Below the pieces are notes generated by a model, which worked only from the letters and a program-made list of their open reading frames with translations, searched no databases and was not told where the DNA came from. The translations under genes and the position numbers were made by a program. Source: an uncultured bacterium (GTDB lineage Bacteria > Bacteroidota > Bacteroidia > Chitinophagales > Chitinophagaceae). From it: DNA of 64,000 nucleotides. Where the stretch lies: assembly GCA_903920455.1 (NCBI GenBank), contig CAIXLY010000077.1:1-64000 (forward strand). Reading direction: 5' to 3'. Below are positions 1,039 through 49,500 of the stretch, in pieces (the stretch's first letter is position 1; each line of letters starts with the position of its first letter).

Positions 1039-3780
1039 ATGGGATTGTTTAATAAACCCTTTGCCATGCACCCTAGGTTCTTTTTTGCTATCATTTCTTT
1101 CTTTTTGATCGCTACTGCTTTCAGTCAACAAAAAACAATCTTGCAGGTTCCTGGAAGAGACAAGTATACCCACATGAATACCAATGGGCTCTCTGTACTG
1201 CCCAGTGGTCGCTATGTTCAGCCTGCTGGTCAAATAACGAGAATCACCCATGACCCATTTGGCCTGGCTATTTCACCAAATGGCAAAATAGCGGTGACGT
1301 TGCATAATGGGGTAATGACCATATTGTATCTCGATAAGGGCGAAACCATTCGGGTGCCTAGTTATGATAACAAAATCGCCTCTCCATTTACAAACGGCTC
1401 TTTACTTGGGGCTTCTTTCTATAAGGATAGTCGGGTTGTATTTCTAAGCGGTGGCGACAATGGAACAGTTATCGCATACGATTGCGTTGAATTAAAAGTC
1501 GTTAATACGTATTCACTTGATGGAAAGGTTGGAGATTTAACATTTCAAGACAGCTTTACTTCAGACCTGATATACAATGAGAAAAATAATGAATTGTTGG
1601 TCTTGGATCAAGCCAATTATCGGTTGGTGCGCATTGATTGCACAACAAAGTTCATCACTGCTTCAATACCGGCTGGCAGATTGCCATTCGGATTGGCGAT
1701 AAGTCCTGATGGATCCACTGCAGTAGTTGCCAATGTTGGGATGTATGCCTATCCATTAATTGAGGGGCTTACAAAAGAAAACTATGACAGCATGCTGATC
1801 ACTCATCATCCATACGCTCACAATACTCCTGAGTCCATCAATGGTTCTATCGTAGAAGGAAAAAAAATACCAGGGGTTGGCGATCCGAATGATCCTGAAT
1901 CAATGAGTGTGTTTACAATAGATTTGTTGAGCAACAAGGTTACCTCAAAGCTAAAGACCGGGTACCTTGTTGGACACATGCTGGAAGATGCAGAAGTTAC
2001 CGGCGGGGCCAGTCCGAATAGTATTGCTATCGACAATTCATTTGCTTATGTCAGCAATGCTACGAATGACAATATCTCAGTAATCGACTACAAGAATGGA
2101 AAAATCCTTCGTCATATACCCATTAAAGTCGATCCAAAGATTGACAGCTATAGGGGCTTGCTTCCTTTTGGTCTTTCACTTTCAAAAGATGGCTCAACCC
2201 TCTATGCTGCGCTGCTTGGGTTCAATGCTGTTGCAGTGATTGATACCAAGACTGATAAAACAATCGGTTTAATTCCAGCTGGATGGGGTGCATCAAGAGT
2301 GAAGTTCTCTCCCGATGAAAAAGAGATGTACATCATCAGTTGTCGGGGTCTTGGTGCTGGTCCAAATGGCGGTAAAGATTTCAAGGCGCCGGTTCAGGGA
2401 ACCTATATCGGTGATATTCAACTCGCTACCTTCCAGCGTTTGCAAACTCCTGATGCTTCGGTATTGGCATCATATACCAGCAGTGTGCTGGCCAATACTT
2501 ATGAGGAAGTTCCTGTTAAAAAAAGCAATAACCCAGTTCCAAACTATCCAGGTGAAAAAGAGTCCCCAATAAAACATATTGTTTACATCACCAAGGAGAA
2601 CAGGACCTACGATGAGGTGATGGGGCAAATGAAAACAGGAAGAGGAGATCCTTCAATCGCCAGATTTGGCTTGAATGTTGATTTGGTACATGAAAATAAG
2701 CGTGGTGTAGACAGCACATTTTTTTCTAATGCTAATGTATCTCCCAATCACCACAAGGCATCCAGTCAGTTTGCATATTCAGATAATTTTTACTGCGATA
2801 GTGATGCTTCGATTCATGGACATCATTGGATGATGGGCGTAATTCCGAATGAGTGGGTGGAGGTAAATTCCAATACCAGCAAAACTGCAAAGTACTTTTC
2901 ACCAGCGGCTGGAAGAAGATTCCCTGGTTCCACGGGTAGCATGGATCCTGAGGATTATGCAGAAACAGGAGGTCTTTGGGAGGCTATGGAAAGAAAGGGG
3001 GTTTCATTTTACAATTTCGGTGAGGCTAATGAAACAGCGCACGTTCGTGAAGAGTGGAATGATACAGCCACTGGTGCTGCACATGGGGTGATGGTGCCAA
3101 TGCAAAAGGCCTTGTTCACTAGAACTAGTCATAATTATGCAGGATACAATACCAATATTCCGGATCAATTCAGGATGAATCAGTTTGAATCTGAGTTTAC
3201 TGATATGTGGCTTGCTGGAAAAGAAAAAATGCCTTCATTAGTAACCGTTCAAATTCCTAATGATCATACAGCTTCACCAAGGCCTGAAGATGGTTATCCA
3301 TTCACGCACAGTTATATGGCAGACAATGATCTTGCAGTAGGAAGAATATTGCATTTTCTTTCCAGAACACCTTACTGGAAAAATATGCTGGTAGTCATTA
3401 CAGAAGACGATCCTCAAGGGGGAGTTGATCATGTTGATGCACATCGAAGTATTCTTTTGCTCGCTGGCCCTTATATAAAACGAAATTATGTTTCACATAC
3501 GCATGCGAATTTTGGATCAGTACTAAAAATGATCTATAATATTCTAGCTGTTCCCTATGTCAATCAGTATGATGTGACGGCTTCTCATCTGGGTGATTTT
3601 TTTTCAAGCAAGCCCAATTACGCTCGCTATACGCTGGAAATGCCTGATAAGCGAGTATTTGACCCAACCAATGCCATGAAAAAGTATAACAGGGATATTG
3701 ATTGGAGAAAGGTGATGCAGGGCCCTGATATGGATGATGAAGAGGAGCAAAGAACAAATCATTACAAAAAGGGAAATTAA
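1039..3780 (+). CDS. Bifunctional YncE-type beta-propeller / alkaline phosphatase-like phosphoesterase (PF04185-like)
   Basis: Signal peptide; YVTN-like repeats (LPFGLAISPDGSTAVVANVG; NSIAIDNSFAYVSNATNDNISVIDYKNGKI); then KHIVYITKENRTYDEVMGQ, HHWMMGVIPNEW, VQIPNDHTASPRPEDG, ITEDDPQGGVDHVDAHR. Confidence 0.85.
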   Translation: MGLFNKPFAMHPRFFFAIISFFLIATAFSQQKTILQVPGRDKYTHMNTNGLSVLPSGRYVQPAGQITRITHDPFGLAISPNGKIAVTLHNGVMTILYLDKGETIRVPSYDNKIASPFTNGSLLGASFYKDSRVVFLSGGDNGTVIAYDCVELKVVNTYSLDGKVGDLTFQDSFTSDLIYNEKNNELLVLDQANYRLVRIDCTTKFITASIPAGRLPFGLAISPDGSTAVVANVGMYAYPLIEGLTKENYDSMLITHHPYAHNTPESINGSIVEGKKIPGVGDPNDPESMSVFTIDLLSNKVTSKLKTGYLVGHMLEDAEVTGGASPNSIAIDNSFAYVSNATNDNISVIDYKNGKILRHIPIKVDPKIDSYRGLLPFGLSLSKDGSTLYAALLGFNAVAVIDTKTDKTIGLIPAGWGASRVKFSPDEKEMYIISCRGLGAGPNGGKDFKAPVQGTYIGDIQLATFQRLQTPDASVLASYTSSVLANTYEEVPVKKSNNPVPNYPGEKESPIKHIVYITKENRTYDEVMGQMKTGRGDPSIARFGLNVDLVHENKRGVDSTFFSNANVSPNHHKASSQFAYSDNFYCDSDASIHGHHWMMGVIPNEWVEVNSNTSKTAKYFSPAAGRRFPGSTGSMDPEDYAETGGLWEAMERKGVSFYNFGEANETAHVREEWNDTATGAAHGVMVPMQKALFTRTSHNYAGYNTNIPDQFRMNQFESEFTDMWLAGKEKMPSLVTVQIPNDHTASPRPEDGYPFTHSYMADNDLAVGRILHFLSRTPYWKNMLVVITEDDPQGGVDHVDAHRSILLLAGPYIKRNYVSHTHANFGSVLKMIYNILAVPYVNQYDVTASHLGDFFSSKPNYARYTLEMPDKRVFDPTNAMKKYNRDIDWRKVMQGPDMDDEEEQRTNHYKKGN

Positions 3781-3781
3781 G

Positions 3782-5815
3782 ATGCGGCGCTATCTCAACA
3801 TTATTGGTGTTACGCTGACGGCGCTATTTATTAATACTCAGGTTTTTTCACAGCAGTCAGTTGATACTGCAACCATCATGGATGAGGTTACAGTGACTGC
3901 TACCAAACGCTCAATGAACAAGTCAGCACTTCCTTATTCGGTTGAGCTGTTGACAAGAGAAGAGTCTTTACTAAACCTTTCTCGTACGGTGCCAGAGTCG
4001 CTCGCTGGAATTCCTGGTGTTTTTATTCAGAAGACCAATCATGCTGGAGGAGCTCCTTTTGTGCGCGGACTAACGGGCAATCAATCACTGATATTAGTAG
4101 ATGGCATTCGCTTGAACAATTCTATTTTCCGTTATGGGCCCAATCAATACTTAACACTGGTTGATCCATTTATCGTTGAACGGGTAGAAGTTGTAAAAGG
4201 AACCGGCTCTGTGCAATATGGTAGTGATGCCATGACTGGAGTTATCAATATCCAGACCAATTCATTGAAATTTAGGGAGCAGGAATTGTGGAGGGAAAGA
4301 GCTACTGCAAGGATTACTGAATCTGGCATGGAGTTTTCTGTTCGTCCAGAATTGAAATACGAGGGCAAGCGATTTGCGTTTGTAATGGGTGCAAGTCAAA
4401 AGAAATTTGGAGACCTTAGAGGAGGCGATACAACAGGGCTTCAAAGGCCTTCAGGATATGGTGAGAAAGCCTTCGATGCAAAAGTAATGGCCAACTTGGG
4501 CGCCAACTGGATCATCACATCTTCTTATCAATGGTTGAGTCAGCATCATGTTCCAGTTTATCATAAATATCTCCTAGAGAACTATGCGCTCAATACTTCA
4601 GATCCGCTGACGCGCGGGTTGGGGTATTTAAAAGTGAATAAGAAATTCGACCATGCAATAGTGAAAGAGCTCGACTTTTTTGTTGCCAATCAATTTATTG
4701 AGGATTCTCGCTATATCAGAAAAAATGCTAGTCAGGTCCTGCGTTCGGAGTTTGATCAAATATCCACTGTCTCAGGTGGAATAGATATGTCGACAGCAAT
4801 ACTTTCAGCATGGACAGCCAATTCCGGCATTGAGATGTATGTCGATAAGGTGGAGAGTTCAAGAAGTGAGAGGAATATTGATGGAGAATCAATAACCCGC
4901 ATGCGCGGTTTATATCCGAATGGCGCAACCTATTCAAACCTTGCCATCTATTCTCTTCATCATTTAAATTTAGGAAGGCTAAATGTTGAAGGTGGATTAC
5001 GCTATAATATATATCAAGCAAAGATTACAGATATTACCCTTGGAAGAATTAGGCTTAGTCCAAGTGCATTGGTTTTTCAAGGCGGAGTAAATTACCAGCT
5101 CAAGAAGGGAATTCATCTTTATGCTAACGTCAGTGATGGATTCAGGGCTCCAAACATAGATGATCTTGGTACGCTGGGCATTGTTGATTTTAGGTATGAA
5201 ATTCCAGCCTATGACCTTAGGCCTGAGCGTTCTGTTAACCATGAAGTTGGACTCAAATATTTTGATAGTAAGTTTAGCGGAAGCCTCGCAGTGTTTAGAA
5301 CAAATCTTTTTGATCTGATCTCGAGAGTGAAAACGTCAGAGGTGGTTGGTGGCTATGATGTATATAAAAAAATCAATATTGATAAGGGGTTTATTCGGGG
5401 CTGGGAAATACAAGCAGCGTATCAGCCAATTAAACAAATTAGATTGCATGCTTCTGCTACGAGCTTATTTGGGCAAAGCATTACAAAGGATCAGCCCCTT
5501 CGACGAATACCGCCATTCAATGCAAGATTGGGTTCGGAGTACTCTATATCCAATTATGTTTTTGGTATTGTCTTTGATTATGCTTCTGCACAAAGACGAC
5601 TGGAATCTGGTGATAAATCCGATAACCGTATTCCTGTAGGCGGTACACCAGGATTTAATATTTTGAATCTGCATGCCAGCGCAACATATCGAAATGTGAC
5701 AATAAGAACTTATCTTAATAATGTCTTTAATCAAGATTATCGCACACATGGTTCAGGAATAAATGGGATGGGTCGTGCTTTCTCCATGATGTTAGTCTGG
5801 CAGTTCAATCATTAA
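3782..5815 (+). CDS. TonB-dependent outer membrane receptor
   Basis: Plug motifs (MDEVTVTATKRS, VPESLAGIPGVFIQK, FVRGLTGNQSLILVDGIRLN, VERVEVVKGTGSVQYGSDAMTGVINI) and C-terminal barrel NVFNQDYRTHGSGINGMGRAFSMMLVWQF. Start set at 3782 (MRRYLNIIGVTLTALFINTQVFSQ signal peptide), not the called 3734. Confidence 0.9.
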   Translation: MRRYLNIIGVTLTALFINTQVFSQQSVDTATIMDEVTVTATKRSMNKSALPYSVELLTREESLLNLSRTVPESLAGIPGVFIQKTNHAGGAPFVRGLTGNQSLILVDGIRLNNSIFRYGPNQYLTLVDPFIVERVEVVKGTGSVQYGSDAMTGVINIQTNSLKFREQELWRERATARITESGMEFSVRPELKYEGKRFAFVMGASQKKFGDLRGGDTTGLQRPSGYGEKAFDAKVMANLGANWIITSSYQWLSQHHVPVYHKYLLENYALNTSDPLTRGLGYLKVNKKFDHAIVKELDFFVANQFIEDSRYIRKNASQVLRSEFDQISTVSGGIDMSTAILSAWTANSGIEMYVDKVESSRSERNIDGESITRMRGLYPNGATYSNLAIYSLHHLNLGRLNVEGGLRYNIYQAKITDITLGRIRLSPSALVFQGGVNYQLKKGIHLYANVSDGFRAPNIDDLGTLGIVDFRYEIPAYDLRPERSVNHEVGLKYFDSKFSGSLAVFRTNLFDLISRVKTSEVVGGYDVYKKINIDKGFIRGWEIQAAYQPIKQIRLHASATSLFGQSITKDQPLRRIPPFNARLGSEYSISNYVFGIVFDYASAQRRLESGDKSDNRIPVGGTPGFNILNLHASATYRNVTIRTYLNNVFNQDYRTHGSGINGMGRAFSMMLVWQFNH

Positions 5816-5826
5816 AATATATTGCT

Positions 5827-8238
5827 ATGTATAAATTACTTTTTCTTTGTTTGTTGGTTACAACATCATTTGTTCATGCACAGATTATCAATTTGCCTAA
5901 TCCAGTTCAACTTCCCAATGGCTGGAAGCTGACTCCGGCAGGCGAATCCTTCGGATTGGGAGATCTTCCATTGAACCTTGCAGTAAGCAATTCTGAAAAG
6001 TATATTGCTGTGACCAATAATGGGCAGAGTACACAGAGCATTCAATTGATTGATGTAAAGAAGAAAAAAGTAATTGACTCTGTGGTTATCGAAAAGTCGT
6101 GGTACGGACTTTCCTTTACCTCTGATGATCGATTTCTTTATGCATCAGGTGGGCATGATAATAGAATTATAAAATATGAGATCTCGTCTGGAAAATTGAA
6201 ACGTATTGATGTGATCAAGTTAGATAAACCTTGGCCTGTGCGTGTTGGTCCTGCTGGTCTTGCTATTGATGAAGTGAGAAATAGAATGTATGTAGTGACC
6301 AGAGAAGACAAAAGCTTATACATCATTGACCTCAAGACAAATTCGGTTATCAATAAGGTAGGGCTTGATGCAGAGGCTTATGATTGTAAAATTTCTAAAG
6401 GCGGAAAAGAGTTGTATATCAGTTGTTGGGGATGTGATAAGATTGTATTGTTTGACCTTGAAAAAAACATGTTTAATACTGCCATCACTGTTGGTGACAA
6501 TCCCAATGAGATGCTTTTATCGCCCGATGGAAAGCTCTTGTATGTTTGCAATTCCAATGACAACTCCGTATCTGTTATTGATCTGCAAACCAAGCGGGTA
6601 ATTGAAACCCTTGATGCAGCGATGTATCCCAATTCTCCTAGTGGATCTACCAGCAACAGCCTCGCGCTTGATTCCAAAACAAATACATTATTTATTGCCA
6701 ATGCAAACAACAACTGCGTCGCAGTTTTTGATGTGGCTGTTAAGGGTAAAAGTTTTTCTAAGGGATTTATTCCTGTAGGCTGGTATCCCACTTCTGTTCG
6801 TTTTGTAGACGGCAAGCTTTGGGTAGCTAATGGTAAGGGGATGACTTCGAAGAGCAATCCGTTTGGCCCCTCGCCCCTTCGCAGGAAGCAGGAGGTTATC
6901 CATCATGGGTATGAAGTGCGTGATGCTTCTCAGGTAGAATATATTGGCAGCCTTTTTAAGGGCAGTATGAGTGTGATACCCTCTCCAACAGAAGAGCAGC
7001 TAGATGTCTATTCAAGAGCGGTGTATTCAAATTCTCCTTATTCAGTTGCCAAGACGAAACTTGCAGACTCACTTGCTCCTGGATTTCCAATCCCTATGAA
7101 GCTCGGTCAGCAGTCGCCCATCAAACACGTTTTTTATGTGATCAAGGAAAACAGAACCTACGATCAGGTATTGGCAGATGTTGCAGGTGGAAATGGAGAT
7201 ACGTCGCTTCTGTTGTTTGGGAAAAATATCACTCCCAATCAGCATGCTTTGGCAGAATCTTTTGTGTTGCTTGATAATTTTTTTGTGGATGCTGAGGTGA
7301 GTGCAGACGGACACAATTGGAGCATGGGAGCTTATGCAACGGACTATCTTGAAAAGACCTGGCCTAGCAGTTATAGCGGAAGAGGTGGTACATATGGCGG
7401 AGAGGGAGATCGTGAGGTTGCAAATAATAAGGGTGGTTTTATTTGGGATAATTGTGCCCGGTCTAATATTAGTTATAGAACCTATGGTGAGTTCACAAGT
7501 GATTTTAAACCAAAGCTAAAATCCCTTGAAGACCACTACTGTACCTATTATCCTGATTACGATATGACCGTGATGGATACTACAAGGTTTTCGTTGTGGA
7601 AACGCGACTTTGATTCACTCCTTGCCATCAATAAAGTACCTCAGTTTAGCACGATAAGATTTAGTAATGATCATACAGAAGGACTAAGCCTAGGAAGACC
7701 CTCTCCATATGCGCATGTTGCAGACAATGACCTTGCTGTTGGCCTATTTATTGAGGCCTTATCCAAGAGTTCTATTTGGAACGAATCCGTGGTGTTCATT
7801 CTGGAAGATGATGCGCAGAATGGCGCAGACCATGTAGATGCTCACAGAAGCCCTGCCTATGTTGCAGGTGGGTTTGTAAAAAGAAGTTTCGTTGATCATA
7901 CGCCATATACAACAAGTTCTATGCTCAGGACCATGGAGTTGATTCTTGGAATGCCTCCAATGACCCAGTACGATGCTGCCGCCACGCCAATGTGGCGTTG
8001 CTTCGATTCAACAGCTCAACGTTTTGAATTTAGTGCAATTGCTCCGGGAGTAAATTTATTCGAGAAAAATACCGCTATTAATCAATGGCAGAAAAAGTCT
8101 GATCAGTTCGATTTCTCCAAAGAAGACAACATCAATGATATTGAATTCAATGAAGTACTGTGGTCTGCCCTTAAAGGCGATATTCCTTTTCCCGGTCCAA
8201 GAAGATCAGCATTTCTCGCTACGCCAGAGAAGGATTAG
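5827..8238 (+). CDS. Second bifunctional YncE-type beta-propeller / alkaline phosphatase-like phosphoesterase
   Basis: Same architecture as 1039..3780: NEMLLSPDGKLLYVCNSNDNSVSVIDLQTKRV; KHVFYVIKENRTYDQVLADVAGGNGD; IRFSNDHTEGLSLGRPSPYAHVADNDLAVG; ILEDDAQNGADHVDAHRSPAYVAG. Confidence 0.85.
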   Translation: MYKLLFLCLLVTTSFVHAQIINLPNPVQLPNGWKLTPAGESFGLGDLPLNLAVSNSEKYIAVTNNGQSTQSIQLIDVKKKKVIDSVVIEKSWYGLSFTSDDRFLYASGGHDNRIIKYEISSGKLKRIDVIKLDKPWPVRVGPAGLAIDEVRNRMYVVTREDKSLYIIDLKTNSVINKVGLDAEAYDCKISKGGKELYISCWGCDKIVLFDLEKNMFNTAITVGDNPNEMLLSPDGKLLYVCNSNDNSVSVIDLQTKRVIETLDAAMYPNSPSGSTSNSLALDSKTNTLFIANANNNCVAVFDVAVKGKSFSKGFIPVGWYPTSVRFVDGKLWVANGKGMTSKSNPFGPSPLRRKQEVIHHGYEVRDASQVEYIGSLFKGSMSVIPSPTEEQLDVYSRAVYSNSPYSVAKTKLADSLAPGFPIPMKLGQQSPIKHVFYVIKENRTYDQVLADVAGGNGDTSLLLFGKNITPNQHALAESFVLLDNFFVDAEVSADGHNWSMGAYATDYLEKTWPSSYSGRGGTYGGEGDREVANNKGGFIWDNCARSNISYRTYGEFTSDFKPKLKSLEDHYCTYYPDYDMTVMDTTRFSLWKRDFDSLLAINKVPQFSTIRFSNDHTEGLSLGRPSPYAHVADNDLAVGLFIEALSKSSIWNESVVFILEDDAQNGADHVDAHRSPAYVAGGFVKRSFVDHTPYTTSSMLRTMELILGMPPMTQYDAAATPMWRCFDSTAQRFEFSAIAPGVNLFEKNTAINQWQKKSDQFDFSKEDNINDIEFNEVLWSALKGDIPFPGPRRSAFLATPEKD

Positions 8239-8334: not shown

Positions 8335-11300
8335 ATGAGACAACTGATAAAGAGCACAAAACCAGTTTCGTTATTGTTCTTTTTTATGCTACTGCTGGGC
8401 AATGCTACAATTGCTCAAAAGAAGATTGCAAAAAAGCCAATCGCTACAGCATCATCAATTGATTTCAATGCATATTTCAAGCCGCTTGTTTGGAGAAACA
8501 TCGGCCCAACCCGTGGAGGAAGGTCTGTAGCGGCAACAGGAGTCAATGGGAATCCGCTGGTCTATTATATGGGAATAACAGGCGGTGGATTGTGGAAGAC
8601 GGAAGATGCGGGGCAATCTTGGAAAAATATTTCAGATGGTTATTTTAATACGGGCTCCGTTGGTGCAGTGGCTGTCTCCGAATCAGATCCTAATGTAATT
8701 TTTGTTGGTATGGGAGAACATGCGCCGCGGGGCGTGATGACTTCCTACGGGGATGGTGTTTATCTTTCAACAGATGCTGGAAAGACCTGGCAGCATTTGG
8801 GGCTTGAACTGACTCGTCATATCTCAAGCATCAGAATTCATCCAACCAATCCCGACATCATATATGTAGCGGCCCAAGGTGCATTATATGGGCCTTCTAA
8901 GGAAAGGGGAATTTATAAGTCGGTTGATGGAGGAAAATCATGGAAGCAAATTTTATATGTAGATGAAAATTCAGGTTGCTCAGACTTGAATATGGACATC
9001 AACAATCCCCGTGTTTTGTATGCTGCTATGTGGGACCATCGCAGGTTGCCCTGGGCAATTCAAAGTGGTGGCAAAGGAAGTGGTTTGTATAAGAGCACGG
9101 ATGCTGGAGAAACTTGGAACAAAATTGAACAAGGTCTGCCTGATGAACTTGGCAAGATGGCGGTTGCGGTATCTCCCGCCAATTCAAATATTGTTTACAG
9201 CTTGGTAGAGAGCAATACTGAAAAAGAAAAAGGTGGACTTTTTGTTTCGATAGATGCCGGAAAAAATTGGAATAAAGTGAGCAGCGATCACCGTCTTACA
9301 AGCAGGGCATGGTATTATATAGAGTTAGCTGCTGATCCGCAGCAGGAGAATACGATTTATGTCCTTGGTGCGGCTGGATTAAAATCGGAAGATGGGGGAA
9401 GGACCTGGACTGAAATTCGGGGAATACATTCAGATTATCATCAGCTTTGGATAAATCCGACCAACAATAAAAATATGGTGATTGCTAACGACGCTGGTGC
9501 TGCGATCACTTTCAATGCTGGTAAAATATGGTCATCTCAAGACAATCATCCTACCGGACAATTCTATCGCATCAATGTGGATAATCTATTTCCATATAAT
9601 ATCTATTCAGGTCAGCAGGATTATTCTTCTATCAAGATGGCCAGCAGAAACACAACTGGTGGTAGGATTTCTGAAAGGGAGTGGACGTATTCAGCAGGAA
9701 GTGAATCTGCTTTTCTTGGCTTTGATCCAAATAATCCCCGTTATGTAATGGGGGGAAGTTATCAGGGAACTATTGAATTGCTTGATTCACAAACTGGAGA
9801 AGGAGTTGGTGTCATGATTCATCCTGTCCAGTATCAAGCCTTGCAGCCGAAGGACATGAAATATAGGTTCAACTGGAATGCTCCAATATTTTATTCTGCT
9901 CATGAGAAGAATGTATTTTATCATGCTGGAAATCGCTTGTTCAAAACATATGATATGGGCAAGTCATGGCAAGTGATTTCGCCTGACCTAACAACCCATG
10001 ACACCAGTAAAATGGGGATTAGCGGTTATCCGTATACGAACGAAGGTGCTGGTGGCGAGAACTATTGCACCATCAGCTACGTAGCGGAGTCGAGATTGGA
10101 AAAAGGCGTGTTGTACACAGGGAGTGATGATGGATTAATTCATATCACCAGAGATGGAGGAGCTAGCTGGAGCAACATCACGCCACCTGATCTGGGAGAA
10201 GCTGTTGTCAATGCAATAGAAGTCTCCCCACATGATCCTGCAGCTGTATATATTGCCGCAAATAAATATAAGTTTAATGATTTTACACCTATTGCTTATC
10301 GATCAGTTGATTATGGAAAGAGCTGGATAAAAATTGTTGCAGGCATACCATACGGATCTTTTCTAAGGGTGGTCAGAGAAGACGATAGGAGAAAAGGGCT
10401 TTTGTATGCAGGGACAGAACGAGGACTTTATCTGTCTTACGATAATGGTGATCATTGGTTTGCTTATCAAGGCAATCTTCCCATTGTGCCAATTACAGAC
10501 TTAAGGGTGCATAGGGGAAATCTTATTGCTTCTACCCAAGGTCGGGCAATATGGATTCTAGACGACCTTCAGCCAATTAGAAGTTTTGATCCGTTGATAG
10601 CGCAGCAAATTAAACTTATGCCGATTGCAGAAGTCTTCAGAGTGTCTGGCTATAGCATGTTTGATGAGAACAAAGATCCTGAGCAACTCTCTCCAAATAC
10701 CGTAAGTGCAAATCCAAGTACTGGTGCTGTCATGTTCTATCACTTGCCGGACAACGCAGATTCCATTAAAGAAATAAAGATTGAGATCAAAGACGCCCAG
10801 GGCGAGCTTGTTCGAAGTTTTAGTGGAACTGCTGCTGCGAAGAAGTCATTGATTAATCTTTCCGAAACAGATCCTTTGCTTACAAAGCGCAAGGGGCTTA
10901 ATCGTTTTGTTTGGGATTTGAGAAGACAAGATATGCCCATGATTGATGGCGTATATATTGAGGGTAGTTATACTGCAGGAAAAGTAAGACCCGGAATGTA
11001 TACCGTTACAATGACCGTTGACGGCATGGTGAGTTCAACCCAGTTTTTAATTCAGCCCGACCCTCGTGTACAGTCTAGTATAAGTGATTATGCGCTGCAT
11101 GATGATTTTTTAAAAAAGCTAGAAGCTGAGGTGATGGATATACACGTTTCAGTTATTCGCATGAGAAACCTTTCTGCTCAGATTAAATCGATGGCTAGAT
11201 TGGCGGAAAAGGACACTGCCAATCAGCCTATTATACAGCTTGCTCAACAGCTCAGTGATCGGATTAAAAACTGGGAGGAGAAGCTTATACAGCCCAAAAG

Positions 11301-11544
11301 CCAGTCGTATGACGATGTTATCAATTTTGTAAATAAGTTAAGCGCAAATATTATTTTTATTCATGGCGAGGCCAATACAAATGTGCCGTATTTTACAGAA
11401 GGGCAAAAGGCTCGGTATGAGGAGTTGCATACTGAGTGGATGTTGTATAAGAAAGAGATGAATGAAATTTTGCAAAAAGACCTTGTCTCATTCAATGCCT
11501 TGTGTAAGTCATTGTTGGTAGACCATGTATTATTTCTTGACTAA
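8335..11544 (+). CDS. BNR/VPS10 (sortilin)-like beta-propeller protein, putative secreted glycosyl hydrolase-like protein
   Basis: Signal peptide; repeated Asp-box-like motifs ([80 protein letters not shown]). Confidence 0.8.
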
Positions 11545-11574: not shown

Positions 11575-13047
11575 ATGAATCAGATGAAGCGTAAATTAAA
11601 AAATATCCCTTTGGTACTGGTTCTGGCCTGCATGCTTGTATTGAATCAGTCGCATGCACCACCCAAACAAAGAACGCCAAATATCATCCTCATTTTTATG
11701 GATGATTTGGGCTATGGAGATCTTTCTTGCTATGGGGCAGATGGTATTCATACTCCTAATATTGATAAGCTGGCAGCGGAAGGAATTCGATTTACCAATT
11801 TCATGTCTGCTCAAGCTGTCTGCAGCGCATCTAGGGCGGCCTTGATGACAGGCTCGTATCCCAATAGGGTAGGGATCTCTGGCGCATTGTCACCCAATTC
11901 AACGGTTGGACTTGCTAGAGAAGAAATGACGATTGCCGAATTGCTTAAACAGAAAAATTATGCTACTGGTATTTTTGGTAAATGGCATCTTGGCGATGCA
12001 AAAGAATTTCTGCCATTGCAACAGGGCTTCGATGAGTATCTCGGCATTCCTTACTCCAATGATATGTGGCCAGTTGATTATGATGGAGCGCCTGCTAGAA
12101 AAGGAAGTAATAAGCTTCAGTATCCTCCACTTCCATTGATAAAAAATGATCGGCCGATTAAGATAATTAGTTCGTTAGACGATCAGGCGAAACTCACTGA
12201 GTTGATAACGAACGAAGCTATCGGTTTTATTAAGCGAAATAAGCACAAACCTTTTTTTGCCTATATCCCTCACCCCATGCCCCATGTGCCAATCAATGCA
12301 TCTCCTGCATTTATAGGAAATAGCAAACGCGGGCTTTTTGGTGATGTGATCCAAGAGGTGGATTACCATGTGGGAAGGATTATGAAAACTTTGAAAGAAG
12401 AGGGGCTTGAAGAAAACACGCTTGTTATTTTTACAAGCGATAATGGACCATGGCTAAATTTTGGTGATCATGCTGGTAGTACTGGCGGACTTAGAGAAGG
12501 CAAGGGTACTTCATTTGAAGGAGGGCAACGAGAACCTTGTATTATGCGATGGAAGGGAATTGTTCCAGCAGGAATTGTATCCAATCAGCTTGTGTCAACA
12601 ATCGATATTCTTCCTACGCTTGCCACTCTTGTAGAAGTTCCGCTGCCAGAAAGAAAGATTGATGGTGTTGATATTTCTAGCGTGCTAAAGGGTGACTTGC
12701 ATATCACTCCCAGAAAAACATTTCTTTATTATTACAGACGCAATTCACTTGAGGCGGTGAGAAGAGACAATTGGAAATTGGTTTTTGAACATCGAGGAAG
12801 GTCCTATCTTGGTCAGAGGCCCGGTGTTGGTGGTTTTCCGGGCAATGCTCCAGAAGATGTACTTTTTCCAGAAGCACTCTATAATCTTGAAGTAGACCCT
12901 ACAGAGTCGCATGACGTTAGTGGTTATCATCCTGAAATTGTATCAGCACTTAGGTTGCTTGCAGAAGAAGCAAGAAAAGAACTTGGGGATGATCTCCAGA
13001 AATCACCTGGCTCCGGACGCAGAGGTCCAGGTGAGCTGACCAAATAA
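11575..13047 (+). CDS. Sulfatase (arylsulfatase family)
   Basis: PNIILIFMDDLGYGDLSCYGADGIHTPNIDKLAAEGIRFTNF; formylglycine site VCSASRAALMTGSYPNRVG; GKWHLGD; FTSDNGPWLNFGDHAGSTGGLREGKGTSFEGGQREPCIMRWKG. Confidence 0.92.
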   Translation: MNQMKRKLKNIPLVLVLACMLVLNQSHAPPKQRTPNIILIFMDDLGYGDLSCYGADGIHTPNIDKLAAEGIRFTNFMSAQAVCSASRAALMTGSYPNRVGISGALSPNSTVGLAREEMTIAELLKQKNYATGIFGKWHLGDAKEFLPLQQGFDEYLGIPYSNDMWPVDYDGAPARKGSNKLQYPPLPLIKNDRPIKIISSLDDQAKLTELITNEAIGFIKRNKHKPFFAYIPHPMPHVPINASPAFIGNSKRGLFGDVIQEVDYHVGRIMKTLKEEGLEENTLVIFTSDNGPWLNFGDHAGSTGGLREGKGTSFEGGQREPCIMRWKGIVPAGIVSNQLVSTIDILPTLATLVEVPLPERKIDGVDISSVLKGDLHITPRKTFLYYYRRNSLEAVRRDNWKLVFEHRGRSYLGQRPGVGGFPGNAPEDVLFPEALYNLEVDPTESHDVSGYHPEIVSALRLLAEEARKELGDDLQKSPGSGRRGPGELTK

Positions 13048-22313: not shown

Positions 22314-25300
22314 ATGAAAAACCGTATTCACATATTTCTTGCTCTCCTTCTTACATTTCATGTAACCAGCATATTTTCACAGTCGTATTATGCCCTAGAT
22401 TTTATTGAGAACAAAGGGCAGTGGGAAGGGAATTTCAACTATAAAAGTACAGTTGGGGATGGCTCATTATTTATTGGTCCAGATGGCTATACCATTGTTA
22501 AACATCATCCTGATGATCATGCTGCTGCTCTTGAATTTATGCATGGACACAGTATAGAAAAAATTAAGCCCCCTGTAAAAATCACAACAGGAGTTAAAGA
22601 TGGTCAAGGGAATGGCAATAACAATGCCAATCGTATTTCAATTCGTTCGCACGCATACACTGTTCGATTTATTGGGGCTAAGGGGCAGGCCCAATTTATT
22701 TCTGAAAAGCCCACGGGGGAATTGTCTAATTATTTTTTAGGGTTTAATCCTCAAAATTGGAAAACTGATGTTGGAAGTTTTGGAACAGTAATTGCCAAGG
22801 AGGTATATCCCGGTGTGGATGTTAAATATTATTCAAGTGGGGATCAACTTAAGTATGACCTTGTTGTGCAACCAGGCGCAGACCTGTCTGGCATATCCAT
22901 GCGCTATGATGGGGTAGATAAAATCTCACTTCGTGATGGACAGTTAATCATTAAAACTTCTGTCGGCGAATCAAAAGAGTTGGCGCCTTATGCGTATCAG
23001 ATCGTGAATGGGGAGAAGATTGAAGTGACTTGCAGTTATGAACTGAAAGATCAGTTAGTAAGTTTTAGAGTAAGAGGATATGATAAAAAGGCAGTGCTTA
23101 TAATTGACCCAGTCTTGGTTTTTTCAACTTATACCGGAAGTAAGGCAAGCAATTGGGGGTTCACTGCTGCTCCTGGTCCTGATGGAAGCCTATACGCTGG
23201 AGGAATAGTATTTGGAACGGGCTATCCAATTTCAATCGGGGCCTTTCAAACTGATTTTTTAGGTGGAACCGATTCCAATAATGGTAGCGGTATTGATGTT
23301 GGGATAACCCGATTTAGCAATGATGGAAAAGCAAGGTTGTTCTCCACCTACCTCGGGGGCAATGGCAATGAATTTCCACATAGCATATTTGTTGATCCGA
23401 TAGGGAATCCTGTTATTCTCGGTAGAACTACATCTTTGAGAGACTTTCCGGTTCTTGGTCAAAACCGTATTGGTTCTTTGGGAGAGACAGATATTTTTGT
23501 TACAAAGCTGTCTGCAGACGGCAGAATAATGTTGGGTGGTGTTGTGGTCGGTGGCAGCCGGAATGACGGAGTGAACATCGATGAAAATATGAGTCCAGAG
23601 GGTCCTCGGTCCCTGTTATATAATTACGGGGATAATGCAAGGAGTGAAGTCATCCTAGACAATTCAAACAACGTTTACGTCGCATCAAGCTCCTCTTCAT
23701 CTGATTTCCCTGCTGGAAATAATCTTGCTGGTCAACAAGATGGTGTGGTTATGAAGTTTTCACCTGACCTTTCTACTCCAATCTTTATTACCATGATTGG
23801 AGGAGCGCTGGATGATGCAGCATTTGTGATTGCACTAAATCCACTTGCAAATGAACTCTATGTTGCTGGAGCTACTGCCAGTAATAATTTTCCTGGTGAT
23901 AAGAATGGTTCTATGCGTACGGCCAATGCGGGTGGTGTAGATGGCTTTGTTGCAGTAATAGACAATGCCGGCAACATCACTAAGTCTACTTACTTGGGTA
24001 CAACAGATTTGGATATTATTTACGGAATTCAATTTGATGAAAAAGGATTTCCGTATGTCATGGGAATTTCGCGCGGTACATGGCCTGTTGTTAACGCACC
24101 AGGACAGAGCAGCATATATAAAAATGATGGATCACATCAATTCATATCAAAACTAAAGCCAGATCTTAGTGGATATATTTACTCTACTGTATTTGGTAAA
24201 AAGGCGACAATACCAAATATTTCTCCAGTCGCCTTTTTGGTTGATCGTTGTGAAAATGTGTATGTATCTGGCTGGGGAGGCAGGTTGAATTCATGTTATA
24301 GCAGTGCTTTTGATGCAAAGACCACAGGTACTACTGGTCTTCCACTTGCAGGAACGCCAATTCAGAATTATACGGACAATAAGGATTTTTATTTTTTTGT
24401 GTTAAAGAAGAACGGAACTGATCAGCTCTATGGTTCATTTTTTGGACAGCAGGGTGGGGAAGGTGATCATGTGGATGGCGGCACCTCACGGTTTGATAAT
24501 AAAGGAGCAATCTACCAGGCCATCTGCGCTAATTGTGGAGGCAGCTCAATTTGCAGAACTGACCCCATAACAAAACCAATGATCATTACACCGGGTGTTG
24601 TTGCACCCGTGAATGGCGCCTTGGGATCTCGAACTCCTGGAGAATGCAATTTGGCTGCATTCAAGATCAACTTTGAGTTTGATGGTGTCAAGGCTGGAAT
24701 CAAGTCTCTCATTAATGGGGTGGCCTATGATACCTCAGGCTGCGTTCCTCTGGAAGTTGAATTTGTTGACACGATTGGCCTTGGTAAGGAGTATGTCTTT
24801 GTTTATGGTGATGGCACACCTAATGATACATTAACCACTGCTAAATCATCACATATTTTCACCCAGCCAAACCTTTACAGTGTAATGGTTATTGCTATAG
24901 ATGAGAGCAGGTGCATTACAAGGGATACCTCCTATGTGAACATTAAGGTGAGTACAAATAAAGCCATCATAAAAGCGAATGCTCAAAAACAGCTGCCATG
25001 CGATGGCTTGCTCTTTAAGTTTGTCAATGAATCTATTGCTCCATTGGGTTCACTATTTACCGGTCAATCTTTTGTGTGGGATTTTGGTCATGATGGGCAA
25101 GTTGACACGGTAGGGCTCCAAGACGTCTATCACTCCTTTCCTGCATATGGTTCATACAAAGTGAAATTATTTCTCATTGATGATAACTATTGCAATCAGT
25201 CAGACTTTTTGGAATTCAATGTTTTTGTTTCTCCTCTCGTTAAAGCACAATTTATTAGTCCGGAGATTGGGTGCATACCATACACCGCTGAATTCATCAA

Positions 25301-26003
25301 TACCAGTACTGCGGGAATAGACTTTCAGTGGTCTTTCGGCGATGGATCGCCTGTGTTTAATGGTTTCAGGCCACCTGCCCATTCTTACGGATCTTCGGTA
25401 GGCGATTATAATGTGATGCTCATCGCAACCGATTCAGGAACCTGTAACATCAAGGATACTTTTCAATATACGATCTCTGTTAAACCAAATCCTGTTGCCT
25501 CGTTCTCCTTTAGGCCTGATCCTCCAGAAGAAAATACACCCTTGGAGTTTACCAATCAATCAACAGGAGCAACCACCTACCTATGGAATTTTGGTGATGG
25601 ATTCTATGCGACCAGCAAAGACACTTCACATCTTTACCAAGAAACCGGAACTTACAACGTATGCCTAACAGCCTCCAATGAGTTTGGTTGCGCAGACACA
25701 ACTTGTGATGTTGTGGAGACGCTCATATTTCCCTTGGTAGATTTGCCCAATGCCTTTACGCCTAATGGCGATGGCATTAATGATATCTTGTATGTCAGGG
25801 GATTTGGAATAAAAAGTATGGCACTGAGAATTTATAATCGGCTGGGACAACTGGTTTTTGAGTCTTCAAGTCCGAACTATGGTTGGGATGGAAAATTCAA
25901 GGGAGTACTTCAGCCGATGGATGCATATGCATATACACTAAGTATATTGTTTGGCGATGATACCACAGTGAACAAGAAAGGAGATATTACGTTGATAAGG
26001 TAG
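22314..26003 (+). CDS. Large secreted protein with PKD domains and T9SS type-B (CHU_C/gliding-motility) C-terminal sorting domain
   Basis: Signal peptide, FIENKGQWEGNFNYKS N-terminus, SBBP-like repeats, PKD motifs (FQWSFGDGSP, YLWNFGDG), C-terminal LPNAFTPNGDGINDILYVRGFGIKSMALRIYNRLGQLVFES...GDITLIR. Confidence 0.9.
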   Translation: MKNRIHIFLALLLTFHVTSIFSQSYYALDFIENKGQWEGNFNYKSTVGDGSLFIGPDGYTIVKHHPDDHAAALEFMHGHSIEKIKPPVKITTGVKDGQGNGNNNANRISIRSHAYTVRFIGAKGQAQFISEKPTGELSNYFLGFNPQNWKTDVGSFGTVIAKEVYPGVDVKYYSSGDQLKYDLVVQPGADLSGISMRYDGVDKISLRDGQLIIKTSVGESKELAPYAYQIVNGEKIEVTCSYELKDQLVSFRVRGYDKKAVLIIDPVLVFSTYTGSKASNWGFTAAPGPDGSLYAGGIVFGTGYPISIGAFQTDFLGGTDSNNGSGIDVGITRFSNDGKARLFSTYLGGNGNEFPHSIFVDPIGNPVILGRTTSLRDFPVLGQNRIGSLGETDIFVTKLSADGRIMLGGVVVGGSRNDGVNIDENMSPEGPRSLLYNYGDNARSEVILDNSNNVYVASSSSSSDFPAGNNLAGQQDGVVMKFSPDLSTPIFITMIGGALDDAAFVIALNPLANELYVAGATASNNFPGDKNGSMRTANAGGVDGFVAVIDNAGNITKSTYLGTTDLDIIYGIQFDEKGFPYVMGISRGTWPVVNAPGQSSIYKNDGSHQFISKLKPDLSGYIYSTVFGKKATIPNISPVAFLVDRCENVYVSGWGGRLNSCYSSAFDAKTTGTTGLPLAGTPIQNYTDNKDFYFFVLKKNGTDQLYGSFFGQQGGEGDHVDGGTSRFDNKGAIYQAICANCGGSSICRTDPITKPMIITPGVVAPVNGALGSRTPGECNLAAFKINFEFDGVKAGIKSLINGVAYDTSGCVPLEVEFVDTIGLGKEYVFVYGDGTPNDTLTTAKSSHIFTQPNLYSVMVIAIDESRCITRDTSYVNIKVSTNKAIIKANAQKQLPCDGLLFKFVNESIAPLGSLFTGQSFVWDFGHDGQVDTVGLQDVYHSFPAYGSYKVKLFLIDDNYCNQSDFLEFNVFVSPLVKAQFISPEIGCIPYTAEFINTSTAGIDFQWSFGDGSPVFNGFRPPAHSYGSSVGDYNVMLIATDSGTCNIKDTFQYTISVKPNPVASFSFRPDPPEENTPLEFTNQSTGATTYLWNFGDGFYATSKDTSHLYQETGTYNVCLTASNEFGCADTTCDVVETLIFPLVDLPNAFTPNGDGINDILYVRGFGIKSMALRIYNRLGQLVFESSSPNYGWDGKFKGVLQPMDAYAYTLSILFGDDTTVNKKGDITLIR

Positions 26004-26014
26004 TTTGGTCTAAG

Positions 26015-27130
26015 ATGCTTGGCCTTGTGAAGCATACAACAACTGAAAGATTGAAAACAGTGAAAAGAAAACATAATATAGTATTTAACAGGCATGCGAG
26101 GGCTACACTTACTGTTGCTCTCGCTGTTTTCTTTGCTTTGTTTCAAGAATCGCGATTGGCTGCGCAGGATCTTCACTTTTCTCAATTCTTCAATTCTCCG
26201 CTCTCTACCAATCCTGCTAATACTGGCTTTATTCCTACATCTGATTATAGGATAGGAGCTCATTACAGAGATCAATGGTCAAGTGTTCCTGTTCCTTACA
26301 AGACCACGAGTATTTTCGGGGATTTTCAATTTTTGCGTGACCGTTTTCCAAGTGGATGGATGGGCCTCGGTGGACTCATCCTTCAGGATGTTGCAGGCTC
26401 CGGAAATCTGAAATCAACAAAAGTATATGCCTCCATAGCCTATCACCAGATGCTGGGGAGTACTGGGCTATTGTCTGCAGGATTTAATCTTGGATACGCA
26501 GGTAAGCAAATCAATCTCACCAAATTGACATTTGATAACCAGTGGAACGGAAGGTTTTTTGACGGAGCTGTACCCAGTGGCGAAACGTTTCAGAATAATT
26601 CCATAGGATATATTGATGTTCAGGCAGGGCTCAACTACGCCTATTTTCCTTCAGACAACCTCTATATGCATGGAGGCTTTAGCGTACATCACCTCAATAA
26701 ACCAAAAGAAACTTTTTTTGCACTCACTCCAGGATACGACAACAGGATTAAGCCCCGCTCCATATTTTTTGCCGATGCAATGATTAAGGTTAACAATCAG
26801 GTGATCATTTCTCCAGGAATTTACTACTCAAGGCAAGCAGCTGCTTCTGAATTTGTTGGTGGGCTGCATATTAATTATAACTTATCTGGAAATGGAGATC
26901 AGCAGCTGATTGCAGGTGTTTATTATCGGCCTGGCGATGCTTATTTGCCCATGGTTGGCTATCAATGGAAAAGCTTCAAATTCATGTTTAGTTTTGATGT
27001 AACAAATTCCTCTCTGAAATTCAATAACTCAAGCCGTGGCGCCAGCGAACTCTTCCTGCAATATGATGGCATTTACAACACGATTTACGGGAATAGACGT
27101 CAAAGCTATTGCCCAAGTTTTGGTAACTAA
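26015..27130 (+). CDS. PorP/SprF family T9SS-associated membrane protein
   Basis: AQDLHFSQFFNSPLSTNPANTGFIPTSDYRIGAHYRDQWSSVPVPYKT and HGGFSVHHLNKPKETFF. Confidence 0.9.
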   Translation: MLGLVKHTTTERLKTVKRKHNIVFNRHARATLTVALAVFFALFQESRLAAQDLHFSQFFNSPLSTNPANTGFIPTSDYRIGAHYRDQWSSVPVPYKTTSIFGDFQFLRDRFPSGWMGLGGLILQDVAGSGNLKSTKVYASIAYHQMLGSTGLLSAGFNLGYAGKQINLTKLTFDNQWNGRFFDGAVPSGETFQNNSIGYIDVQAGLNYAYFPSDNLYMHGGFSVHHLNKPKETFFALTPGYDNRIKPRSIFFADAMIKVNNQVIISPGIYYSRQAAASEFVGGLHINYNLSGNGDQQLIAGVYYRPGDAYLPMVGYQWKSFKFMFSFDVTNSSLKFNNSSRGASELFLQYDGIYNTIYGNRRQSYCPSFGN

Positions 27131-46459: not shown

Positions 46460-46588
46460 TTTAGTATAATTTCCTCTTAATTGTTTGATTTTATGTAATT
46501 TAGGTGTGAAAACGGCCTTAAATTCGGGGCTCATATCAGGTTATTTTTTTTGATCAACTACCCCCATATTAAGCAGCTTATCAAGCCT

Positions 46589-49500
46589 GTGAAACTTATT
46601 CTGTTTCGGCTCATTCCAATATTATTATTGCTCAGCACGCAAGATGCATCCGCACAGGTAGTGGCCAATTTCTCTTATGAAAAACCAGTTTGTTTCATTG
46701 ATGGCGCAGGGGTAATTGTTAAGTTCAAGGATGAGTCTTATTCTCTGAATGGCTATCCAATAGTTGAATGGGTATGGAATAAGGGCGATGGGAGTCCTGA
46801 TTTGCCTAACAAGAAAGACCCATCACCGGAGTGGACATACGATAATCCTGGAGTATATCGTGTGACGCTCACTGTGAGAAATCTTGCCAATGACCAGCCT
46901 GGGTTCATTACTCAACTGGTGCTTGTTTATCCTCCTGTCATCGTAAACTTCAGTTCCAACATCAATGTGGGATGTAATCCGCTTACTGTGTTATTGTCTG
47001 ATTTATCTGCTCCTGAATCCTTAGTAGATGGTGTAACTGGCAGTTCCTATATTAATAAAATAAAAAATTGGACCTGGGATTTTGGTGATGGAGTTCAAAG
47101 CAATACGCTGACCAGCACTGTTTCACATACCTACACCAACTCTGGTAATTTTAGAGTGAGGCTTTTCATTGAAACTGAAGGCGGGTGTAAGGCATTCGGT
47201 GAATCTGCTCCTGATTTTATACAAGTTGAAGAAAAAGTAAAAGCTAACTTTTACTTGCCAGTACCCGACATCTGTAAATTTCCTGTCAAGGTAAATGCCT
47301 CCAACCTCTCGGAAGGTGCAATTTCCTATAAGTGGAATGTGACTGGACCAGGCTTGGCCAATTTGTCTGATGATGCGGTTGCTGAGCCTGAGATAAGTTT
47401 TTCGCAACCGGGAACCTACAAAGTGCAGTTGGAAGCAACAGGAGCCAATAATTGTGGTGATGTATATGAACTTGATTATGTTATTTCACCAAGTCCATCT
47501 TCAGCTCAATTTAGCAGCCCACTTTCGGCCTGTCCAAATACCAACGTACCATTTATCAATACATCCACCGCTCCAACGATTACCAATGCATGGTATGTAA
47601 ATGATGTGTTGGTCGCTACTTCAAAAAATCTAACCCACCAGTTTAATACTGATGGTATAAACAAGGTTCGTCTTGAATCCTTAATCGGTTCTTGTCAGTA
47701 TACCCTTGAAAAGGACATTGAAATTTATCCAGTGCCAGTTGTGGATTTCGAAGCAGATATCTATACAGGCTGCAACACTCCACTAGTAGTGAAATTTAAG
47801 GACTTGACACCCGGAAACATTGTTGAAAGGATTTGGGAGTTTAACGATCAGATTACACCATATAAAAGAACATCAAATGAGATAACGCATACCTATTACA
47901 AAACTGGGTCGTACTATCCTGTGTTAACTGTAATTACTGACAAGCTTTGTCGAGTAAAAAAAATGTCCAGCACACCAATTTTAATTCAACTGCCTAAAAT
48001 TATCAGTAGTAATCTTCCGGACAGTGGATGTGTTGGAATGGAAATCACCCCCAACGTCACATTTAACATCCAAGCTGATATCACTGAATGGATTTGGGAA
48101 GTAGTGGATGAAAATGGAGTAGATGTATATACAAGTACACTAGAAAGTCCAGGTTCATTTCGATTTGATGATAGGGGTATTTATACCGTTAATTTGACAA
48201 TCAAGGCATCCCAATTCTGTGAGAAGTCCTACAGCTGGCCGGTTAAAGTCGGCATTCAGCCCCAACCTTTCACCATCTATCCCGACAAACTTGAAGATTG
48301 CGCAAATTCAACGTTCAAATTTTTTTACGACGGCACTGGTCCAGAGCCCACAACCTTTAAATGGAAATTTTCATCATCAGACTCTTCTTTTGAAAAAAGT
48401 CCTTCAAGAATATTTAAGGAGCTCGGTCCAAAGGATGTAACATTAACTGTATTTGACAACGGCTGCCCTTTGTCTGTTACTGAAATTGGAATGATTAATA
48501 TTAAAGGAGTTGTAGGCGACTTTAAAGTCAACAACGATTGTGCTAATCCTTTGGAGCCTCAATTTGAAGACAAGTCTTTAGGCAATATTGAAACTTGGAA
48601 GTGGACATTTGGAGATGGTTCGCCTGCGAAAGAATATACTGCCTATGAGCCGCCATTTATACATGCTTTCACTAACCCCGACAAGTATGAGATTACACTT
48701 ACTGTAACTGGAGAGGGATGTGTTTTTAGCGAATCATTAAATATTACAGTGGCCAATGAAAAGGCGATCGACTTTTCCACAACACTACCAGTGTGTCTTT
48801 CAGCTGGGTCCACTACCTTGCAGGCCACAAAAAATAGTCCAAGTTTTGTCAAGGATTATTATTGGGATTTGGGTTGTGAATATAGGCCTGTTCCAGATGA
48901 AGATAATTTTGAGTTGATGTTTGCTCGACCCTGCGGATCTGATCCAACTTACCTCAGGGGCAGCTATCCGATGCGGGTTAAAATCATTGATGTCAATGGA
49001 TGTATTTATGAAAGCCCAATTAAAGATGTATATATCGGAGGCCCCATTGCAAAAATTTCTGAAATTACTTCTCTTTCTGGGTGTGAAGATTTAACGGTAA
49101 AATTTGAGGACAATTCCGATGTTGATCCTAACGTACAAATCCAAAGTCGAATATGGAATTTTGGTGATGGTACCAGTCAGGATATTTTATCAGGGCCTAT
49201 CTCCCATGTCTTTTCAAATCTTGGTACTTCGCCCGTTAGCATGACAGTATCAGATGAACAAGGGTGTTCATCTACCAGTGGTATACTCGAAGTGAATACG
49301 TCGAGGATAGATATAGATTTCAGTGCAGCACAAACTTCCAGTTGTATTGACAAGAATATTCAATTTGAACCAATAACTCCAAATCCACTAACATCTTATA
49401 ACTGGGAATTCGGCGATGGATGGGCATCAACATTGTCTAGTCCCAAAGTTGCGTATGCTGCATCAGGACGAAAGTCTGTTCGGTTAACTGTAAGAGATGG

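Follow-up and report, generated by a model that had tools for sequence, protein, structure and literature searches.

The 64,000 nucleotides analyzed here (the window) extend from base 1 of contig C77 in the 2.31-Mb genome of a lake bacterium, for which 100% completeness is listed; the relatives used for comparison are Chitinophagaceae, often metagenome assembled. Near the start of the window, the gene for a TonB-dependent receptor (TBDR) is bracketed by genes for two propeller-phosphoesterase proteins, PE1 and PE2 (Table 1), as a preliminary description of this DNA had reported. This triplet and the VPS10/BNR and sulfatase genes behind it form a run of five plus-strand genes with successive gaps of 1, 11, 96, and 30 nt. 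The 1-nt gap counts from the ATG at position 3782; an alternative in-frame start at 3734 would lengthen the receptor and overlap PE1. A scan for promoters and terminators returned fewer sites than in shuffled sequences. The VPS10-BNR protein stands behind PE genes in about 10 related loci (L024 to L027, L029, L031, L033, L035, L037, and L222). Elsewhere in the window, two large proteins (22314-26003 and 46550-51547), one with DUF7948 and one with many PKD domains, bear CHU_C type IX secretion signals, and a PorP/SprF protein (26015-27130) follows the first of them.

Table 1. Positions of the triplet, its domains, and neighboring genes in the window
Feature	Position	Strand	Basis
GH78 alpha-L-rhamnosidase, C-terminal part, truncated by contig start	47..1006	+	PF17389/PF17390; ends 32 nt before PE1
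PE1: signal peptide, YVTN propeller, and PF04185 phosphoesterase (predicted), 913 aa	1039..3780	+	ORF, Pfam, TIGR02276, PDB 1l0q, tree
PE1 propeller domain, approx. residues 60-470	1216..2448	+	TIGR02276, 1l0q; strands in low-confidence model
PE1 phosphoesterase domain, approx. residues 511-870	2569..3648	+	PF04185; metal-ligand alignment with AcpA
TonB-dependent receptor (TBDR), phosphorus-associated subfamily	3782..5815	+	PF07715 (Plug), PF00593 (beta-barrel); orthologue contexts
PE2: signal peptide, 7-bladed YncE-like propeller, and PF04185 phosphoesterase (predicted), 803 aa	5827..8238	+	ORF, Pfam, TIGR02276, PDB 1l0q, AlphaFold
PE2 propeller domain, approx. residues 40-335	5944..6831	+	TIGR02276; AlphaFold model; YncE fold match
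PE2 phosphoesterase domain, approx. residues 432-720	7120..7986	+	PF04185; metal ligands align with AcpA and NPC4
Sortilin/VPS10-BNR propeller protein, often found with the triplet	8335..11544	+	PF15902; recurs in relatives' loci
Sulfatase, companion recurring in several genus members	11575..13047	+	PF00884

PE1 and PE2 share one architecture, in line with the preliminary description. Both contain YVTN repeats (TIGR02276, with a PDB match to 1l0q), and their PF04185 domains score 42.4 bits in PE1 and 41.1 bits in PE2, above the gathering cutoff of 23. Searched against the PDB, a joint profile of the two catalytic domains matched AcpA (2d1g, E = 2e-8) and the plant phospholipase NPC4 (8hav, 2e-4). 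Residues E520/N521/D790/D791 of PE1 and E441/N442/D661/D662 of PE2 align with E43/N44/D386/D387 of AcpA and with E23/N24/D299/E300 of NPC4, the last four being metal-binding residues in the crystal structure of that enzyme (PMC9837106). The metal ligands, whose loss from both enzymes the preliminary description had named as an argument against its own proposal, are retained in both. The motifs ENRTYD, PNxH, SxxGHxW, NDHT, ADND, and EDDxQxGxDHVDAHR are near-invariant in the distinct orthologues compared, of which 88 belong to PE2 and 38 to PE1; they include the three that had been picked out earlier (ENRTYD, NDHT, and the last), and this conservation is well above chance. In the longest motif, the PE1 orthologues differ from one another only at V/I/L and A/G; NDHT was matched in 28 of these 38. 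The candidate nucleophile is probably the invariant serine of SxxGHxW (S591 in PE1 and S492 in PE2, the latter in a low-confidence part of its model).

The catalytic domains of PE1 and PE2 are only 33% identical, and the PE1 orthologues, which come from many genera, form one clade in a quick tree (23 of 23 tree members, support of 1.0), indicating that the two are not recent duplicates. A separate PE2 clade lacked support in this tree (0.05), and a clade is therefore claimed for PE1 alone. These comparisons support the earlier view of two diverged phosphatases, that is, phosphoesterases with intact active-site motifs and predicted activity. Both proteins carry type I signal peptides and lack a consistent lipobox, so that they are more likely to reside in the periplasm than on the cell surface, the other location that had been suggested for them. 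In the AlphaFold model of PE2 (mean pLDDT of 71.8), the propeller matches E. coli YncE with a target TM of 0.80; propellers saturate the matches in the fold search, masking the catalytic domain. The PE1 model, built from 7 sequences, has a mean pLDDT of 47.9 and was for this reason not used for catalytic geometry.

Judged by its sequence, the receptor is a distinct subfamily: its orthologues are 41 to 67% identical, and within the same genome the nearest other receptors reach about 30% over partial length. It scores 56 bits against the SusC/RagA profile (cutoff of 368), and there is no SusD gene within the triplet interval, upstream of which lies only the GH78 gene truncated by the contig start. 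The triplet interval does not show the SusC/SusD pair with glycan enzymes that marks a classical polysaccharide utilization locus; the preliminary description had drawn the same conclusion from the lack of a SusD gene after the receptor. Its term "SusD-less" applies only locally, since SusC-SusD genes lie immediately upstream of PE1 in relatives (L031, L124, L129, L152, L212, and others). Receptor orthologues also occur without PE genes, beside genes for Exo_endo_phos, metallophosphoesterase, MJ1255-type glycosyltransferase, and DUF5690 proteins (L106 to L108), and another (L109) lies near polyphosphate kinase and exopolyphosphatase genes. These contexts support a phosphorus-containing substrate independently of the PE genes.

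Contiguous PE1-TBDR-PE2 genes occur in seven genomes of the genus (that of the window, G002/L026, G006/L104, G008/L031, G009/L105, G021/L132, and L029). The preliminary description would have given up its proposal for a triplet confined to close relatives among random neighbors; the exact order is indeed confined to the genus, but its neighbors are nonrandom, and PE1-PE2-TBDR genes are adjacent or nearly so in four other genera (L152, L154, L160, L183, L212, and L214). In some genus relatives (L024; L124, the same as L027; and G011, where L110 and L125 span two contigs), a block lies between the receptor and PE2 genes, coding for Phn-HD (TIGR03276, 215 bits), a PhnX-like protein (TIGR03351), an HpnZ alcohol dehydrogenase (TIGR03366), a further PhnX-like protein, and DUF5690. 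An HpnW-type FAD oxidase (TIGR03364, 413 bits against a cutoff of 285) follows PE2 in these relatives. The Phn-HD and TIGR03364 matches reach the NCBI cutoffs; the PhnX-like and HpnZ matches are strong but below theirs. A CehA/McbA-like metallohydrolase with no Pfam match (L024:10316-11563) recurs in the genus between PE2/HpnW and VPS10.

Across related Chitinophagaceae, the locus runs SusC-SusD, then PE1/PE2/TBDR or another alkaline phosphatase (AP)-superfamily enzyme, then Phn-HD oxygenase, PhnX, DUF5690, and a PbfD/HpnW-type FAD oxidase; L221 has the order SusCD-PE1-PhnX-DUF5690-FAD oxidase. Two variant loci (L187 and L191) contain PhnA-, aldehyde dehydrogenase-, and PhnW-like genes, and in L187 PhnA, phosphonoacetaldehyde dehydrogenase, and PhnW all score above their cutoffs, constituting the classical 2-aminoethylphosphonate (AEP) pathway. 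PE1 often stands alone, and most PE2 relatives are in other contexts. DUF5690 shows weak similarity to the phosphoglycerate carrier PgtP; this protein (e.g., L024:5326-6615), which also occurs beside receptor orthologues lacking PE genes, is a candidate for the import of phosphonates or organophosphates.

The association with phosphonate genes was quantified in 399 genomes of the family, searched separately for Phn-HD and PE1. Phn-HD is present in about 110 genomes and a PE1 orthologue in 47; 33 genomes contain both genes (13 expected, P = 8e-11). The two genes are less than 11 kb apart in 14 of the 33 (0.17 expected, P = 2e-22). No Phn-HD gene lies within 11 kb of the remaining 33 of the 47 PE1 orthologues. 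These P values ignore shared ancestry and so overstate independence, though the matches are spread over many genera. In the reverse test, 60 Phn-HD loci chosen regardless of their neighbors were compared with 20 random control loci; the PE counts exclude weak partial matches, with about 25% coverage, to a third PE paralogue. The Phn-HD loci contained SusC (52 loci), SusD (56), DUF5690 (59), the FAD oxidase (58), PE1/PE2 (12), and AP360 (43), whereas SusC was found in 6 control loci and the others in none. A phoB or phoR gene (threshold of 60% identity, with at least 64% for the orthologues counted) flanks 17 of the 60 Phn-HD loci, including the reference's own locus, and 0 of the 20 controls; a looser count of PhoB/PhoR homology was rejected because 5 of the 20 controls were also positive, and the identity threshold was used instead.

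Several other features of the phosphonate loci recur. A near-fixed SusC-SusD-AP360-PhnHD-PhnX-DUF5690-FAD oxidase cluster extends across many Chitinophagaceae genera (L139 to L198), in which AP360, a PF01676-like protein of the alkaline phosphatase superfamily, occupies the slot held elsewhere by PE1/PE2. A 434-aa protein with weak metallo-beta-lactamase similarity and no Pfam family is encoded in about 10 loci, between SusD and AP360 (L151, L158, L165, L166, and L127). Upstream of SusC in about 14 loci (including L142, L156, L161, L164, and L184) is a gene for a 190-aa XRE-cupin protein, a possible local regulator besides PhoBR.

The C-P-cleaving enzymes that define a phosphonate catabolic locus are present in the relatives and absent from the locus and genome of the window. 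Searches of this genome returned no match to Phn-HD (TIGR03276), DUF5690, or PhnJ, no PF06007 match at the cutoff, and nothing above the cutoff for the HpnW oxidase (TIGR03364); the best phosphonatase (TIGR01422) match scored 29.5 bits against a cutoff of 220. What matches there were to TIGR03364 and TIGR01422 are generic superfamily matches far below the cutoffs and were rejected. With no phosphonate module, C-P lyase, or DUF5690 in this genome, the triplet there probably acts on phosphate esters only, and the link to phosphonates comes solely from the relatives.

Taken with the receptor and PE gene contexts, these results make it likely that PE1-TBDR-PE2 forms the front end, in the outer membrane and the periplasm, of a system scavenging organic phosphorus, a function predicted from protein families and gene neighborhoods. 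The earlier proposal of outer-membrane uptake of a phosphorus-containing substrate gains support from receptor orthologues beside phosphoesterase genes and from PE genes beside phosphonate catabolism and, in part, phoBR. As to substrate class, phosphonate-type organic phosphorus fits better than the inositol phosphate that had been considered. The receptor, in many relatives together with the adjacent SusC-SusD, would carry an organic molecule containing phosphorus through the outer membrane. PE1 and PE2, given their fold and residues, would then use a hydroxyl nucleophile to cut a P-O-C ester bond of this molecule in the periplasm, and the propeller probably serves to hold a substrate or partner. 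Where relatives have the complete locus, the freed phosphonate, most likely AEP or its N-methyl form, would enter the cell through DUF5690, the PgtP-like carrier candidate, and would then be converted to phosphate by enzymes encoded in the locus: a FAD oxidase of the PbfD/HpnW type, acting with PhnX-like hydrolases, the Phn-HD oxygenase, or both. Import, ester cleavage, entry through DUF5690, and oxidation and hydrolysis to phosphate are mutually consistent as successive steps, for which we infer substrate, activity, localization, and regulation from gene content and residues. Phosphonate esters as the ancestral substrate would be part of the best explanation. In the window's genome, which lacks the intracellular module, the triplet most likely frees phosphate from phosphate esters, or else the phosphonate part would go unused; the system there is probably best read as a remaining front end acting on phosphate esters.

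More tentatively, and short of a commitment on our part, the loci may represent an undescribed system, widespread in the Chitinophagaceae, for foraging on phosphonate esters. SusCD and/or the TBDR would import esterified phosphonates (fragments of phosphonolipids or phosphonoglycans), the PF04185 fusions would hydrolyze these esters in the periplasm, and DUF5690 would be the inner-membrane phosphonate carrier feeding PbfD, PhnX, and Phn-HD. The window would then retain the front end of a system whose intracellular half had been lost.

Alternatively, the triplet could serve plain scavenging of phosphate esters (nucleotides, glycerophosphodiesters, or phospholipid fragments), its proximity to phosphonate genes reflecting shared Pho regulation only. 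The lack of phosphonate enzymes in the window's genome, the receptor orthologues accompanied by Exo_endo_phos, metallophosphoesterase, and PPK/PPX genes, the frequently solitary PE1, and phoBR near many loci all agree with this explanation. We nevertheless consider it unlikely: many genera have PE1 and PE2 in the slot from SusD to Phn-HD, as members of apparent operons and not simply as neighbors; genomes with PE1 also have Phn-HD more often than expected; and L221 places PE1 between SusCD and PhnX-DUF5690-FAD oxidase. Use of a glycan, whereby phosphate or phosphonate is stripped off a rhamnose-containing or sulfated polysaccharide that then serves as a carbon source, is improbable. The rhamnosidase upstream and the sulfatase and VPS10/BNR genes downstream, in a single run, suggest a glycan and count against the scavenging of organic phosphorus as the main role; SusCD is present in relatives, and dissolved polysaccharides are known to occur as phosphonate esters (PMC5649143). 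Still, the window's run has no SusD or broader set of glycan enzymes, a rhamnosidase lies beside the cluster in just one other locus (L033, after VPS10), and what makes up the loci of other genera is phosphonate genes, not glycan genes from the reference set.

In E. coli, the gene for the YncE propeller, which has no phosphoesterase domain, lies beside that for the TonB receptor YncD, and in heme receptors the ligand histidine is located between the FRAP and LxPE motifs. A role of the TBDR in taking up heme or a siderophore, with accessory help from the propeller-phosphoesterases (compare YncE beside YncD), would accord with the best receptor matches, TonB-hemin (TIGR01785) in NCBIfam and PhuR in the PDB, but is very improbable, and a heme receptor was rejected, because the TIGR01785 score is below the cutoff (198 against 317 bits) and the FRAP-LxPE stretch is without histidine in every orthologue where the motif pair was found; moreover, no iron genes were recognized near the triplet.

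The closest known counterparts of an organic-phosphorus front end are the PUS/PusCD phosphate utilization systems of Flavobacterium (PUSI to PUSIV and PusCD), which are induced by phosphate depletion and whose PusCD clusters are stated to include phosphonate-degrading enzymes (PMC8115612). In these systems, TonB-dependent transporters, partly SusCD pairs, are colocated with periplasmic phosphoesterases, and the triplet has the same combination of transporter and phosphoesterase. It differs in that a SusCD-type pair (PusCD) is absent from the window, though present upstream of PE1 in relatives L031, L124, and L129; such a pair is not universal among PUS, since the listing for PUSIII has a TBDT but lacks SusD (PMC8115612). 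The PUS enzymes are PhoA, PF00149, PF16670, PF02333, and others, the YncE-PF04185 fusion not being among them, and that study, in which the Chitinophagaceae are unmentioned, describes Fjoh_3414, a Pi-induced putative phosphatase with a YVTN domain encoded as an orphan lipoprotein (PMC8115612). Fjoh_3414 may be related to the fusions. PE1 and PE2 have the PF04185 catalytic family and metal ligands in common with the AcpA/phospholipase C superfamily (AcpA, 2d1g; NPC4, 8hav), from which they differ in their N-terminal propeller and in their presence as two paralogues with a TBDR in one predicted operon. The relatives' loci resemble the hydrolytic AEP pathway (PbfC/PbfD and PhnX), in which PbfD enzymes convert AEP and N-methyl-AEP to phosphonoacetaldehyde and PhnX then frees phosphate (PMC10590968), by their TIGR03364 FAD oxidase, PhnX-like hydrolases, and Phn-HD. 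They differ from it by being coupled to SusCD/TBDR and periplasmic esterases, and the pathway is absent from the window's genome; the text of PMC10590968 mentions neither TonB transport nor Bacteroidetes. In the open-licence papers searched, whose silence is weak evidence, we found no description of the combination of propeller-PF04185 fusions, TBDR, and DUF5690 in Chitinophagaceae.

Polysaccharides of dissolved organic matter can carry phosphonates in ester linkage, and alkaline phosphatase-like enzymes have only been postulated to free them (PMC5649143); a 2023 review of phosphonate degradation leaves TonB transport and Bacteroidota unmentioned (PMC10574752). The triplet, together with the C-P-bond-breaking genes of its relatives, points to a little-described route by which Bacteroidota may feed on phosphonate-containing matter. 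For a family of lakes and soil, the loci supply candidates for uptake at the outer membrane, cleavage of the ester, and transport across the inner membrane (DUF5690), and they offer a testable role for three groups of proteins without a known one: the YncE-PF04185 fusions, DUF5690, and the TBDR subfamily of the triplet.
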